Shown one piece after another: positions 3,101-8,547 of a stretch of 64,000 nucleotides of DNA. A program made the position numbers and the translations under genes. A model generated the notes under the pieces. That model searched no databases, had not been told where the DNA came from, and saw only the letters and a list, made by a program, of their open reading frames with translations. How positions within the stretch are numbered: the stretch's first letter is position 1; every line of letters starts with the position of its first letter. This stretch comes from Bacteroidales bacterium (lineage in GTDB: Bacteria > Bacteroidota > Bacteroidia > Bacteroidales > JAADGE01): the NCBI GenBank assembly GCA_021108035.1, contig JAIORQ010000075.1, positions 1 to 64,000 of the forward strand, written 5' to 3'.

Positions 3101-5102
3101 TAATATTCAAAATAAAGCAGAAATTATGTATTTTAAGAATACAGGAAACGGAACTTTTTTGGAACCCAAAGAATTTTACATTGGGTTTGTAAATTTTAAT
3201 TCAGTCAATTATCTTTCAATTAAAGATTTTGATTTTGACGGTAAGCCGGACTTATTGATAAACAATTCTATATCTAATGGTTACAACTTTATTTCCGTTT
3301 TTAGTAATGATACTTCAGAACTTATTAATCCGGCATTAATTCCAGGAACTAATGCCGGAAGCGTTGCATGGGCTGATTTTGATAACGATAATGATTTTGA
3401 TTTTTTTACATGCGGCAAATTTAATAACGACACAATAGGAAAAGTTTTCTATAATAACGGAGACGTACATAATACCGTTCCAAATCAACCAACCGAATTA
3501 GATTTTTCGTGTAACGATGATACTGTTTTTATATCTTGGAATAAAGCAACAGATAACGAAACACCTCAAAATACTCTTACATATAATTGTTATATGTACG
3601 AAATTGGCGGAGATACAATTTGGCATTCAATGTCTGATAAAAATACCGGAAAACGATATTTGCAAAGACCCGGCAACACAGGACATAACACAAGTTGGTT
3701 TATTACCGGGCTTGATGTAACAAAAGAATATGCATGGTCGGTTCAGACAATAGATAACAGTTTTTTGGGAGGTTTATTTGCTTCTGAAAATACTTTCAGG
3801 CTTGCTCCTGCATTTGTAATTCAACCGATAGATCAAACAGTTTGCGAAACCGGAAGTATAACATTTAATACAGCAACAACACCGGCAATAAATTATCAAT
3901 GGTATCAATTCACTGAAACTGATACGATTTTAATTGAAAATAATGAATATTACAGTAATGCTACAAGTCCGAATTTAACAATATCAAATGCAACACTTGA
4001 TATGCATGACTATGAGTTGCATTGTGCTGCAACAACCGTAGGCGGAACAACATACAGCGATGCTGCAATTTTAAGTGTTGATGAATTAATTTTGGCAAAT
4101 GCAGGAGAAGACGGGGGTGTTTGTGTTTTAACTGAATATCAATTGTCAGCCTCAAATCCTGAACCGGCTGAGGGAACATGGTCTTGTAATGTACAACAAA
4201 TTGCGTTCAGTGATATTCATGCAGCTGATGCCGTAGTGTATAATTTGCCCGAAGGTAGTGTAAATTTGGAATGGACAGTTACCCAAGATAATGTTTGCGG
4301 TATTAATTCTGATATAGTTGTTATAACACAAAATCCTGACGGAACATTACCTGATAAATCAGCAAAACCCGACGGAGAAACCGAACTTTGTATCGGAAGT
4401 ACATCCAAGATTACAACAGCCGGAGCAAATAATTCATTATCTTATAACTGGGAAATAAGCCCGTCGGAAGCCGGAACAATTTCAGAAAACGGAACAAGTG
4501 TTACGGCAAATTGGAACAACAATTATTCGGGTTTTGCAGATATAAAAGTTCAGGCAGAAAATGAATGCGGTACAGGAGACTGGTCCGATGATTTTGTAGT
4601 TGAATTAAAAGATATTCAAGCAACTGATATTATTCAAAAAAGTGAAATCATGCTGATTAGTGTTGATTCAGGTTATATTTATCAATGGTATTATAATGAA
4701 TCTTTGATTTCAGGTGCAAACAAACAATATTATTACGATGAAAATCTGCAAAACGGAAATTACCGTATAAAAATATCTTTTTATGAAGGATGCGATAAAC
4801 TCTCTTCAATATACGAATTAGGAGACAATAACAAATCATTATCACTTGCCGAAACAATTAAAATATACCCAAATCCGACAACAGGCAAAATTACAATTGA
4901 AATTGATAATGAATTATTATGTAAAGTAAAATATACCATAACTGATAATCTCGGACGAAAGCGAAAAGAAAGCATCATAAATAAAAAACAAATATTTATA
5001 AAATTTGATGAAGATTTATTCGATTTAAATGCCGGCAACTATCTTGTCGAATTTATTTTTGATGATAAAGAAAAAGCGAGTAAACAGTTGATAATTAAAT
5101 AA
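135..5102 (+). CDS. Giant FG-GAP/VCBS repeat surface protein with T9SS sorting domain
   Basis: A 1655-residue secreted protein. Residues 1-23 form a signal peptide ending in FA before Q. From about residue 25 to 1110 there are roughly twenty repeats built around WGDYNNDGYLDVLLTG followed by KIYKNNGDETF; the D-x-N-x-D-G-x-x-D loop is the calcium-binding motif of FG-GAP/VCBS blades, so one or more beta-propellers are expected. A fibronectin-III-like region follows (about 1115-1220), then Ig/PKD-like domains (about 1228-1480). The end (about 1570-1655, starting IKIYPNPTTGKI) is a type A T9SS sorting domain, so the protein is exported by T9SS and probably displayed on the surface. Adhesion or matrix binding is a family-based guess; the ligand is unknown. 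The upstream gene shares its last 55 bases, which suggests a tandem family. The start is the first ATG before a clean signal peptide. Confidence 0.9.
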   Translation: MKNLLKTLTIIILQLSIINTTFAQDVFQFTPVQYGDVAWGDYNNDGYLDVLLTGESANGKITKIYKNNGDETFMELTELNLPGVYYSAVAWFDYDDNGELDFIIAGKSEDGSKITKLYKNNGDETFTEQSANLPGIWKGSINCFDFDNDGYPDVLLGGKIDDSSVTKLYKNNNGDGTFTEETSASFPASYIKTVTVGDYDNDTYTDVLVQGELYKNNSGDGTFSYQSGSGLVQAHLGLFFDYNNDNYLDIIISTIINKNIIIYENMQNGTYTAIDTIAKICPHGTISVLDYNNDNYLDIIIAGDTSDYNTPITKIFKNNSGNGSFTEDQSINILPIGNTTAIACGDYNNDNFTDFILTGSYAGDYFTRLYTNTGNSNFNYPEISFGNFSTFDEIQAVMRSSASWADYNKDGLQDFIISGYPDYYTKLYENNGNGTFSENTLTNFTGVSYSDIAWGDYNNDTYPDILLTGYSTIDGLISKIYKNNGNGTFTDINAGLVEIYNGSVVWGDYNNDNYLDILLTGYSDGGSISKIYKNNADETFTDINAGLTGVKGSSAVLGDYNNDNYLDILLTGYSTIDGFISKIYKNNRNETFAEQTEINITGYGLSSATWADYNNDGYLDFLISGSNEDNNWGLTELYKNNGDETFTKQADNFPNLIFAANKWFDFDNDDYLDVLLTGKEYDGLVSKIYKNNGNGTFTEQTQINLQGVYVGSADCADYNNDGFKDILLTGEVVHPVQGNIPFSSVYANNGTGNFEKVDYSFPHVRQSFVSTADFNKDGNTDMLIFGQNADNEQIAEFYKTTAFGFQKTDIAIPVLKDGTSSWGDYNRDGYLDLIICGKNNLGIPTTKLLENSTTGKFMETGIFITGVYAGYAEWADYNNDGLLDFVITGNTGSSLITKIYRNTGTDFAETSAILPGSNHALWADYNNDGLWDILLTDENNITKLFKNNGNDNFTEIFNYPDVHDFMRDIKFADYDYDGFDDIIMIKEDDNIQNKAEIMYFKNTGNGTFLEPKEFYIGFVNFNSVNYLSIKDFDFDGKPDLLINNSISNGYNFISVFSNDTSELINPALIPGTNAGSVAWADFDNDNDFDFFTCGKFNNDTIGKVFYNNGDVHNTVPNQPTELDFSCNDDTVFISWNKATDNETPQNTLTYNCYMYEIGGDTIWHSMSDKNTGKRYLQRPGNTGHNTSWFITGLDVTKEYAWSVQTIDNSFLGGLFASENTFRLAPAFVIQPIDQTVCETGSITFNTATTPAINYQWYQFTETDTILIENNEYYSNATSPNLTISNATLDMHDYELHCAATTVGGTTYSDAAILSVDELILANAGEDGGVCVLTEYQLSASNPEPAEGTWSCNVQQIAFSDIHAADAVVYNLPEGSVNLEWTVTQDNVCGINSDIVVITQNPDGTLPDKSAKPDGETELCIGSTSKITTAGANNSLSYNWEISPSEAGTISENGTSVTANWNNNYSGFADIKVQAENECGTGDWSDDFVVELKDIQATDIIQKSEIMLISVDSGYIYQWYYNESLISGANKQYYYDENLQNGNYRIKISFYEGCDKLSSIYELGDNNKSLSLAETIKIYPNPTTGKITIEIDNELLCKVKYTITDNLGRKRKESIINKKQIFIKFDEDLFDLNAGNYLVEFIFDDKEKASKQLIIK

Positions 5103-5125
5103 AGGCAATACCGGCTTCTTTAGAT

Positions 5126-5187
5126 GACCGGCTTCGACTTCGCTCAGCCTCCATGCTCCCGGAGGTTGAGCGAAGTCGAAACCGGTC
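5126..5187. repeat. REP-like hairpin upstream of the GIY-YIG gene
   Basis: Arms of 27 bases (5126-5152 and 5161-5187) pair with two mismatches around an 8-base loop; the arm core is CTTCGACTTCGCTCAGCC. On the + strand it can be read as FDFAQPP...LSEVET, a translation often left as a spurious short ORF in Bacteroidota annotations. It lies between the giant T9SS gene and the GIY-YIG gene, and a second hairpin of the same family follows the nuclease gene. Confidence 0.85.
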
Positions 5188-5217
5188 TGTCAAGAAGCTG
5201 TCAAAAAAAATTTAAAA

Positions 5218-5523
5218 ATGAAAGGATACACATATATTTTAAAATGCTCAAACGGACAATACTATACCGGAAGCACAAAATATTTGGAAAAAAGAATACA
5301 ACAACATCAAGTAGGAGAAGGTGCCAATTTTACAAGAAAGAACTTACCTGTAAAATTAGTATATTATGAAGAGCATCAAAGAATTGACCAAGCATTTTAC
5401 CGTGAAAAACAAATACAAGGATGGAGCAGAAAGAAAAAAGAAGCATTAATAGACGGCAAATTTGAACAACTTAATAAATTAGCAGAATGTAAAAATGAAA
5501 CACATTTTAAAAGTAAAAGATAA
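5218..5523 (+). CDS. GIY-YIG nuclease family protein (UPF0213/YhbQ-like)
   Basis: A 101-residue single-domain protein. The N-terminus has the GIY-YIG core in the variant form YTYILKCSNGQYYTGST, followed by LEKRIQQH with the catalytic-type arginine and a C-terminal REKQIQGWSRKKKEALI segment carrying the conserved acidic residue. Length and motifs match stand-alone UPF0213-type proteins; members of the superfamily cut DNA, but the substrate of this subgroup is not established. The gene lies between two hairpins of one REP-like family (5126-5187 and 5578-5635) and next to several degenerate copies. The ATG at 5218 gives the usual family N-terminus; a longer overlapping frame from 5124 only translates the hairpin. 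A role in moving or maintaining the hairpins is inference from position. Confidence 0.85.
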   Translation: MKGYTYILKCSNGQYYTGSTKYLEKRIQQHQVGEGANFTRKNLPVKLVYYEEHQRIDQAFYREKQIQGWSRKKKEALIDGKFEQLNKLAECKNETHFKSKR

Positions 5524-5526
5524 GGT

Positions 5527-5670
5527 AATACCGGTTTCGAATATGCATGCAATACCGGTTTAGGCTTCGCATGCAACACCGGTTTCGACTACGCTCAACC
5601 TCCATATACGGAGACTGAGCGGAGCCGAAGTCGGTAATTCAAAGAAGTCGAAGCCGGTAATTCAAAAAAA
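5527..5670. repeat. Cluster of degenerate CCGG-containing repeats and second REP-like hairpin
   Basis: Two adjacent 24-base direct repeats beginning AATACCGGTTT (5527-5550, 5551-5574) run into a hairpin with 26-base imperfect arms (5578-5603, 5610-5635) of the same family as 5126-5187. Two more partial copies of GAAGCCGGTAATTCAA follow (about 5629-5670). This looks like a decayed array of the REP-like unit downstream of the GIY-YIG gene. Confidence 0.7.
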
Positions 5671-5735
5671 GAAACCTGTTAATCAAAAATCGAAGCAGCA
5701 AAACCGGCAAACCATAATATAAAAACATATAAATT

Positions 5736-7043
5736 ATGAGCAGTAAAATATTATCAGTCTTCTGCATATTATTCATATTTAACACAATTACATACAGTCA
5801 AATTTTTGAAGATGAACAAAAGTTTGAAATACGTGATTCGTCTCTCGTATTGTTAAAAAAATATGTAAAATATGCAGATTTAACAGAAGACGGCATTTCA
5901 ATAAGTGAAAATTATGAAGCAAAATTTCTTTCCTTATTTACCGAAGATGCTTTTGTTGTAAATGATTTACTCGATAAAAGAGAACTTATTTCACCGGAAT
6001 ACTTTGTTAAAATGATTAAAGAAAAATATGAAGGAGGAATTGAAGTAAGAGCAGAAATTGACAGTGCCTATTTTAAAAATCTTAAAAAAGTTGAAGAAAA
6101 TATATATTCAGTCCAAGTTGATTGTCGAAAATTTACAATAGGACTGAACAATCAAAACAAATTAGTGAGAAAAGACATAACAGCTACATTTACTATTCAT
6201 TTTAAATACAAAGATGAAACTTTATCCGATTTTCAAATAAAGGAAATTATCAGTAACGAAATTATATTGCAAAGGCATAGTGATAAAAAAATGAAAGGGC
6301 TGTATCTTGGTGTAAATGTTAACGCCCTTGCCGGCAGATTGTTTTCAGACAATAATATCCGGTATTATAACAGAGAGTATAAATTATCCGGAGCATTTTC
6401 CGCCGGTATTTCTGCTGATTATTGTATTTCTTCTAATTATGCAGTCAGTATCGGAATTGATTATTGCAGTTTTAATTCTAATTTTAATACCAAATATAAT
6501 AATGAGATGAATAATAACTTACCGGGTACGGATATTGATAATGACAATTATTATCTGTATGTTAATTCTGATTTTACCGAAAAAAACAGTTTGAAATATG
6601 TTTCAATACCGGTGAAATTTAAATACAGACATAAGCTGTATGATGACATCTCGTTTTTTGCTTCGGCAAGCTTCTCAACTTCCTTTTTATTATCATCCGA
6701 CTCATATATTAACGGAAGTTCTGTGCATTCGGCTTGGTATGAAGAATACAATTTGTTTGTTGATGATGCAGAATTATATAATCTCGGAGAGCATAACTAC
6801 GATGAAGCCTTTGATCTTTCAGTTACTGAACTTTTCTTTTCCGGAATATTTGAAGTCGGTGTATCAATTCCTGTAAAAGAGTCTTCTTTTCTGAATGTCG
6901 GAGCAAAACTTGATCATAGTTTTAGTGATTTAGCATATAATACATCTTCATACAGAGACGATTATATTAATTTGCACGGAGCACCAAAGTCACTGTTCAT
7001 ACAGTCAGGCGGTATCTTTATTTCTTATCTTTTTAAATTATAA
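5736..7043 (+). CDS. Outer-membrane beta-barrel protein with N-terminal periplasmic domain
   Basis: A 435-residue protein with a signal peptide (about 1-21, ending in YS before Q). Residues 25-180 form an alpha/beta region of unknown family. From about residue 190 (GLYLGVNVNALAG) the pattern changes to alternating hydrophobic/aromatic beta-strands typical of an outer-membrane barrel, closing with FISYLFKL, a C-terminal aromatic strand. The caspase-like gene starts 7 bases after its stop, so the two are almost certainly one transcription unit. I do not recognise the exact family; the barrel call rests on strand pattern and ending. Confidence 0.7.
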   Translation: MSSKILSVFCILFIFNTITYSQIFEDEQKFEIRDSSLVLLKKYVKYADLTEDGISISENYEAKFLSLFTEDAFVVNDLLDKRELISPEYFVKMIKEKYEGGIEVRAEIDSAYFKNLKKVEENIYSVQVDCRKFTIGLNNQNKLVRKDITATFTIHFKYKDETLSDFQIKEIISNEIILQRHSDKKMKGLYLGVNVNALAGRLFSDNNIRYYNREYKLSGAFSAGISADYCISSNYAVSIGIDYCSFNSNFNTKYNNEMNNNLPGTDIDNDNYYLYVNSDFTEKNSLKYVSIPVKFKYRHKLYDDISFFASASFSTSFLLSSDSYINGSSVHSAWYEEYNLFVDDAELYNLGEHNYDEAFDLSVTELFFSGIFEVGVSIPVKESSFLNVGAKLDHSFSDLAYNTSSYRDDYINLHGAPKSLFIQSGGIFISYLFKL

Positions 7044-7050
7044 CAAGGCT

Positions 7051-8547
7051 ATGAAAAAAACAACATTGATTATTATAGTTTTTTTGTTTTTGCAAAACAT
7101 CGTATTATATGCTGATGAAAATGATATTATAATTTCATCATACAGCAGACACAATGCAAAAATCACAATTACAAAAAGTGAATTTATTGACAATAGTTTT
7201 AAAGTAACTTTTGGAATAACTTGGGTTAATTCAAAGCTCAAAGCAGTGAAAAACGAAAGCTCTGTTCTCGCAATATTGAATGAATCCGTAAAGGTATTTC
7301 CTGAAAATTCCGTGGGCATATCAAGTAAAAATACTGTTAGTGATTATTCAAATAAAGAATTTACTGTGGAGTTTTTTGCCATGCCGGATTTTGAGGGTGG
7401 TGAAGTTAAAATTATACTACCTTTTGTTTTTTCAGAAAATGAAGAAGAAGCCAAAAACGGAAATTGGAAAGAAGTATTATACTCAAAAGCAAAAGAGCCG
7501 ACAATTTTTTATGAAGTTGACGGTAAGTTAATTAAAGATATTTATGCTCCCGAAGTAAGATTAACAAGCCCTTTGCTCAATAAAAACAATGATGAGAAAA
7601 TACCGATTGTAGAAACTAAAATTACTGATATTCATATTTCAGCTTACGATAAAAGTGGTGTTAAAGAAATTTATATCAATAACAGAAAAGCAAAATTTAA
7701 TTTTACGGGAGAATATACGGCAAAAGTAACTCTTTACACAGGATTAAACATTGTTAAAGTAAAAGCAATTGATAATTTTGGTAATGAGAAAGAAACTAAT
7801 TTTGAAATAATATGTTCTTATCAATACGATTTGGATTTGAGAGGCGGAAAATATTACGCATTAATTGTAGGAATAAATGATTATAACGACCCGAATATTC
7901 CTGATCTTGATAAGCCTGTTACAGATGCAGAAGCTTTAAAAAAGTTATTGACAAATCTTTATACCTTTGATGAAGAAAATGTATTGTTTTTAAAAAATTC
8001 AACACGTTCAGATTTTATCAATAAATTAGATGAATTGGCAGGAAAATTGGGCAGTGATGATAATTTGCTTATTTTTTATGCAGGCCACGGTTATTGGGAT
8101 GATTTCAAAGAAATCGGTTACTGGATGCTTTCCGATGCAGTTGTCGGTGATCATTCTACTTGGATCAGAAACAGCACTATAAAGGAGTATATAGGCGTGT
8201 TTAAAACAAAACAAACCCTTTTAATTACAGATGCATGTTTTGGCGGTTCTATTTTCAAAACAAGGGGAATAAAAACCGACAGGGTTGTGGCATATCAAAA
8301 AATTTACGATTTGCCCGGCAGAAAAGGTATGACAAGCGGAACATTAAAAGAAGTTCCGGATGTCAGTGTTTTTCTTCAAACCTTGTTAAAAAGATTAACC
8401 CAAAATGAAGATAAATATTTAACGTCTTCCGGTTTATTTAACAGTTTAAGAGATGCTGTTTTAAATAATTCTCCAAACGTCCCGCAGTTTGGTACAATTC
8501 AAGGAGCAGGTGATGAAGGAGGCGAATTTATTTTTATAAAAAGATAA
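7051..8547 (+). CDS. Secreted caspase-like protease (peptidase C14 family)
   Basis: A 498-residue protein with a signal peptide (about 1-21). Residues 22-270 hold beta-rich, Ig-like segments (for example IPIVETKITDIHISAYDKSG). The caspase/metacaspase p20-like domain begins at YYALIVGINDYND (about 272). Both catalytic residues are visible: His346 in YAGHG and Cys396 in DACFGGS, so activity is expected. Members of clan CD cut after acidic or basic residues; the specificity here is unknown. The signal peptide puts it in the periplasm or at the surface, unlike cytoplasmic caspase-like defence effectors. It is the second gene of a pair with an outer-membrane barrel protein. There is no T9SS domain; it ends at FIFIKR. 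Confidence 0.88.
   Translation: MKKTTLIIIVFLFLQNIVLYADENDIIISSYSRHNAKITITKSEFIDNSFKVTFGITWVNSKLKAVKNESSVLAILNESVKVFPENSVGISSKNTVSDYSNKEFTVEFFAMPDFEGGEVKIILPFVFSENEEEAKNGNWKEVLYSKAKEPTIFYEVDGKLIKDIYAPEVRLTSPLLNKNNDEKIPIVETKITDIHISAYDKSGVKEIYINNRKAKFNFTGEYTAKVTLYTGLNIVKVKAIDNFGNEKETNFEIICSYQYDLDLRGGKYYALIVGINDYNDPNIPDLDKPVTDAEALKKLLTNLYTFDEENVLFLKNSTRSDFINKLDELAGKLGSDDNLLIFYAGHGYWDDFKEIGYWMLSDAVVGDHSTWIRNSTIKEYIGVFKTKQTLLITDACFGGSIFKTRGIKTDRVVAYQKIYDLPGRKGMTSGTLKEVPDVSVFLQTLLKRLTQNEDKYLTSSGLFNSLRDAVLNNSPNVPQFGTIQGAGDEGGEFIFIKR

Follow-up and report, generated by a model that had tools for sequence, protein, structure and literature searches.

Whether a small nuclease gene that stands between copies of one hairpin could be the mover of that hairpin is the question raised by a locus in contig JAIORQ010000075.1 of a Bacteroidales bacterium (GenBank assembly GCA_021108035.1), of which positions 1 to 64,000 of the forward strand, here called the window, were analysed. 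The gene encodes a stand-alone GIY-YIG nuclease, and a preliminary description of the locus had proposed, by analogy with repetitive extragenic palindromic (REP) elements and their REP-associated tyrosine transposases (RAYTs), that the nuclease may act on the hairpins. GTAG-tagged REPs, and the REP doublets forming hairpins (REPINs), are associated with Y1 HUH tyrosine transposases (PMC2817692, PMC3116915). CGTC-tagged REPs, described by Di Nocera et al. in hosts that include Sinorhizobium meliloti and comprising, among others, dRS3 of Neisseria and RPE-4 and RPE-6 of Rickettsia, "apparently lack a dedicated transposase"; that paper asks what moves them and does not mention GIY-YIG proteins (PMC3733652). 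No report linking GIY-YIG genes to REPs was found in open-access text, which does not cover most subscription journals and preprints. The comparisons described here suggest, with a probability that we put at roughly 0.68, that REP-GIY-REP is an autonomous unit and a non-homologous counterpart of RAYT/REPIN.

The gene in the window (5218-5523, + strand) encodes a protein of 101 amino acids that matches PF01541 (E=1e-17) and has the conserved tyrosines, arginine, and glutamate of the GIY-YIG superfamily (UPF0213 type), its conserved residues including Y6, Y16, R26, H30, and E63; an AlphaFold model (predicted local distance difference test score, pLDDT, 88.9) has UPF0213 structures (1zg2, 1ywl) as its nearest folds, followed by SLX1. 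Upstream of the gene, a hairpin at 5126-5187, with 27-nucleotide (nt) arms that are 93% complementary and an 8-nt loop, folds as DNA at -30 kcal/mol (z=-9.5) and contains the core TTCGACTTCGCTCA (5133-5146, + strand), the invariant core of what we term clade I REPs, as well as an inverted copy of this core (5167-5180, - strand). Downstream, a second hairpin (5578-5635; DNA fold z=-4.6) carries cores at 5584-5597 and 5616-5629, and the long hairpins of the window are thus pairs of inverted REP units. Two decayed REP-like copies form a 24-nt tandem at 5527-5574 (direct repeat family D2, with a three-mismatch core at 5560-5573), and repeat comparison identified a decayed REP half-copy (AAGTCGAAGCCGG) at 5639-5660 (- strand), so that the described arrangement of a GIY-YIG gene between two hairpins of the same family plus decayed copies was borne out. 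The exact half-hairpin core has no further occurrence in the window (chance expectation 0 in 100 shuffles); the spurious reading FDFAQPP..LSEVET corresponds to an open reading frame (ORF) at 5124-5369.

Gene and repeat are associated well beyond the window. Among 149 genomes of the same class, a protein search identified 30 loci, and for nearly all of these genes the core motif was present at a distance of at most a few hundred bases, in most cases on both sides. A scan of GTDB genomes yielded 80 loci in Bacteroidota, Cloacimonadota, Spirochaetes, Ignavibacteria, Fibrobacter, Gammaproteobacteria, and others, at which motif density reached 5.9/kb over the 100 nt directly upstream of the gene and 4.7/kb over the 100 nt directly downstream, compared to approximately 0.1/kb beyond 500 nt; most of the loci without the exact motif had close sequence variants. 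A strict scan for perfect hairpins missed most loci because the repeat units are imperfect, and a motif-free test, which asked whether both flanks have a repeat in common, was applied to 247 GIY-YIG genes. This test found a shared repeat in 151 of 240 near flanks, compared to 1 of 199 far flanks (850-1200 nt away) and to 4 of 219 other ORFs at the same loci, and the gene thus has a strong preference for hairpin neighbourhoods. Further cases come from other loci, plasmids among them: GIY-YIG genes of S. meliloti pSymB and of Shinella and Rhizobium plasmids have repeats of the CGTC-tagged type on both sides, those of Methylobacterium and Planktothrix plasmids have flanking REPs of other sequence, and Spirosoma and one Sphingomonas locus have doublets upstream; flanking REPs were not found at another Sphingomonas gene. 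On the Planktothrix plasmid (L411), the REP-flanked gene (1489-1773) has an MmeI-type restriction enzyme on one side and the DISARM gene drmA on the other.

As a rule, REPs occur near the 3' ends of genes (PMC3733652), and it could be argued that REPs and small genes simply gather in the same spaces between convergent genes while being functionally unlinked. This coincidence, which we consider very improbable, is already contradicted by the control ORFs, by relatives of the nuclease, and by the match between enzyme clades and REP types. In a tree of 236 proteins, with flanking repeats scored by label or by the flank test, repeats were present at 97 of 98 genes of clade I, which includes the window gene, at 37 of 38 in clade II, at 46 of 52 in clade III, and at all five in a gamma-REP clade, whereas genes of a YhbQ-like clade had no shared flank repeats (0/32) and only isolated label hits (3/32). 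Proteins of the UPF0213/COG2827 type (YhbQ, YazA; PDB 1zg2, 1ywl) have the same single-domain fold and the same size as the window protein, but neither the YhbQ-like genes nor two Bacillota relatives were found to have flanking REPs. The division runs within Gammaproteobacteria, where the close relatives (L248-L252 and L226) have the repeat and YhbQ-like genes do not. Among 18 loci encoding UvrC or other long GIY-YIG proteins, there was one isolated motif match.

The repeats diverge together with the enzymes. Clade I genes are flanked by repeats of TTCG[AG]CTNCGCTCA types and clade II genes by these as well as by TCGAGC..GTCGA and TTCGAGTAG..CGTATCGAGAA types, while clade III is associated with GTCATTGCGAG, GTCATTCTGAG, GTCATGCTGAAC, GTCATTCC.GCG, and other GTCAT..ATCT types. 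Mapped on the protein tree, repeat type changes 28 times, compared to a mean of 54 and a minimum of 50 in 500 shuffles, a comparison that serves as a guide rather than a probability because the labels were set post hoc and related genes are not independent. Paralogues within one genome each have the repeat type of their own clade; for example, genome G003 has the TTCGACAAGCTCA type at one locus (L290) and the GTCATGCTGAAC type at another (L291), with similar pairs in G128, G081, G059, and G087. As each branch of the enzyme has its own hairpin type, these enzymes are suggested to move or maintain a large class of repeats. A RAYT was also considered as the agent of the window-type repeats and was rejected, as none of the 30 Y1/RAYT transposase loci in the same genomes had the motif within 1.5 kb.

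The repeats themselves have the anatomy of REPs, with a short covarying stem that contains a conserved mismatch and with an unpaired head that is also conserved. At 62 clade I loci, stem positions -1 to -3 pair in 95-97% of cases, compared to 34-71% with shuffled partners, with up to four pair types, and are joined by two fixed internal mismatches and then a fixed G-C pair; only the flanking stem represents independent evidence here, because the core itself served as the search pattern. The unpaired head is G/CG in clade I and GTCA in clades II and III, unlike the GTAG of RAYT-associated REPs. Most clade III repeats resemble CGTC-tagged REPs (head CGTC, TGTC, or CCTC and paired AT stem ends) in having a (C/T)GTC head and an AT..AT stem start; by contrast, clade II has the head GTCA, and the clade I REP of the window has only G/CG, without the full CGTC tag.

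Copy number across genomes also goes with the gene subgroup, a correlation that the preliminary description had proposed to test. The clade I-type core had a median of 18 copies in genomes with clade I/II-like genes (reversed-pattern control, 2), compared to 2 in genomes whose GIY-YIG genes are all more distant and 2 in genomes with none (clade I/II-like versus gene-less genomes, P=1.6e-7), and the hairpins are thus not equally abundant in genomes lacking the gene. The source genome (4.96 Mb) holds only a handful of copies. Most of these are at the intact window gene, at a second intact GIY-YIG gene on contig C30 that encodes an 80% identical protein, and at a truncated one on C24; one inverted doublet without a gene (L003) is present on C17. 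The sequence TTCGACTATGCTCA, which is present at four places in the same genome (G000; contigs C3, C14, C44, and C86, as L011, L012, L014, and L015), two of them near contig ends, is probably a separate repeated element.

At orthologous sites, the presence of both gene and repeats varies. Within one genus, the site beside a NAD(P)HX-dehydratase-like gene (gene names at these sites are a reading of translated sequences) is intergenic and holds REP-gene-REP in G003 and G120 but nothing in G050; here G087 has a doublet without a gene, GTCACCCTGAGCGTAGTCGAAGGG-CAATTATAA-CCCTTCGACTACGCTCAGGGTGAC, G344 has another doublet, and G343 has an inverted repeat of a different kind. In the same genus, the 3' end of fumC carries REPs and a gene in G087 and doublets of other REP families in G344 and G120, and it is empty in G003 and G050. 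GIY units of different REP types occupy this fumC end in three genera (L280, L288, L292, L297), those in two further families being of other types and one being oppositely oriented. GIY-YIG enzymes include homing endonucleases, and these sites also suit the main rival explanation, in which another agent spreads the REPs and a selfish homing-type GIY-YIG gene cuts REP arrays and is copied in by recombination between flanking REPs; a REP doublet that alternates with REP-gene-REP at one site, the different units in differing orientation at fumC, and the existence of REP-rich genomes without the gene would all be consistent with such a gene exploiting REPs moved by something else. We nevertheless regard homing into repeats as unlikely, since the REP families differ from one GIY-YIG clade to the next, so that homing would need repeated re-targeting if the REPs have independent agents, since no other enzyme turned up beside the repeats (0 of 30 Y1 loci), and since REP counts go up only where the matching clades are present.

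The same sites bear on whether the gene is a host function. At the protein level, purifying selection is strong (ratio of nonsynonymous to synonymous substitution rates, dN/dS, 0.02-0.14 in 12 pairs), the fold is near that of the structure-selective nuclease SLX1, and several Flavobacteriaceae share a gene position upstream of one GHMP-kinase-like gene, all of which would fit a domesticated nuclease that processes REP cruciforms or heteroduplexes by trimming or resolving them, with the flanking REPs regulating the nuclease gene and no mobilisation. However, orthologous sites in one genus differ in whether they carry the gene, and single genomes have several paralogues with different REPs, which is unlike a fixed housekeeping gene; we thus consider this kind of surveillance improbable. 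The suggestion that the unit is domesticated did not hold up for the same reason, as there are several gene loci per genome and presence differs between species.

Several observations weigh against an autonomous REP-GIY-REP unit. Flanking repeats are missing from six of 52 clade III genes and from some GIY-YIG genes on plasmids, few forks of the protein tree are resolved, and REP labels were assigned by regular expressions after the flanks had been seen. While inverted REPs bracket the gene, target-site duplications are not resolvable at divergent intergenic sites. With regard to copy number, 12 of 41 gene-bearing genomes hold fewer than 10 copies, and 8 of 50 genomes without a stand-alone GIY-YIG match hold at least 10, among them G040 (one complete contig; 244 copies), G017 (172), and G047 (81), all without a stand-alone gene (L058-L087); these repeat-rich genomes would be explained by a spread that preceded loss of the gene, or by a different agent.

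On the autonomous-unit reading, the small stand-alone GIY-YIG proteins of clades I to III would partner a superfamily of REP palindromes as RAYTs partner GTAG-tagged REPs. The likeness to RAYT/REP/REPIN is architectural and was confirmed as such: both have small imperfect palindromes with a conserved head, often in inverted doublets, a single enzyme gene between REPs, co-divergence of enzyme and REP, and dispersed gene-less inverted doublets (here L003 in the source genome, the G087 and G344 sites, and whole-genome counts). They differ in that the partner enzyme is a GIY-YIG protein (PF01541) rather than an HUH transposase and in that genomes with the GIY-YIG system have several paralogues with different REPs. 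REP-gene-REP would be the autonomous form, of which the window holds one copy, and REPIN-like gene-less doublets would be its non-autonomous derivatives, scattered to intergenic sites, often at the 3' ends of genes. SLX1 is a eukaryotic structure-specific endonuclease that acts with SLX4 and cuts branched DNA; it differs from the REP-flanked genes in its eukaryotic origin, its partner SLX4, and its lack of a link to repeats, but its activity on branched DNA makes a hairpin or cruciform substrate plausible. The nuclease may recognise an extruded or single-stranded REP hairpin through the head nucleotides, the covarying stem, and the fixed mismatches, and may nick or cut it, after which repair or strand transfer would place a copy of the bracketed segment elsewhere. 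Hairpin cutting by the nuclease, and movement of the repeat as its result, are probable by analogy with RAYTs, from which we infer cleavage, its position, the copying route, and a dependence of dispersal on the enzyme.

Few repeats are as common in bacterial genomes as REPs, and GIY-YIG proteins are a specific candidate mover, in several phyla, for the CGTC-tagged superfamily. We consider the chances evenly balanced that this superfamily, together with related repeats in Bacteroidota, Proteobacteria, Cyanobacteria, and other phyla, has GIY-YIG nucleases as its dedicated mobility enzymes, and hence that a second, transposase-free class of REP mobilisation spreads repeats by hairpin cleavage. 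If so, these nucleases would represent a new class of repeat-mobilising enzymes parallel to RAYTs, which would account for the spread of very common palindromic repeats and assign a role to the many proteins whose annotation reads no more than "GIY-YIG nuclease family protein".

Some features of the neighbourhoods were also recorded. In several Flavobacteriaceae (L169, L173, L186, L194; approximately 5001-6300), the GIY-YIG frame continues with no stop codon across the REP and on into the GHMP-kinase-like gene downstream. At four loci (L283, L286, L088, and L107), a GIY-YIG gene of another clade is situated no more than approximately 200 nt from a tRNA or transfer-messenger RNA (tmRNA) gene, and at L088 and L107 long repeats are common to the flanks. 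In the window, a Caspase-like (Peptidase_C14) protein is encoded at 7051-8547, two genes downstream of the REP-GIY-REP unit and after an outer-membrane beta-barrel protein.
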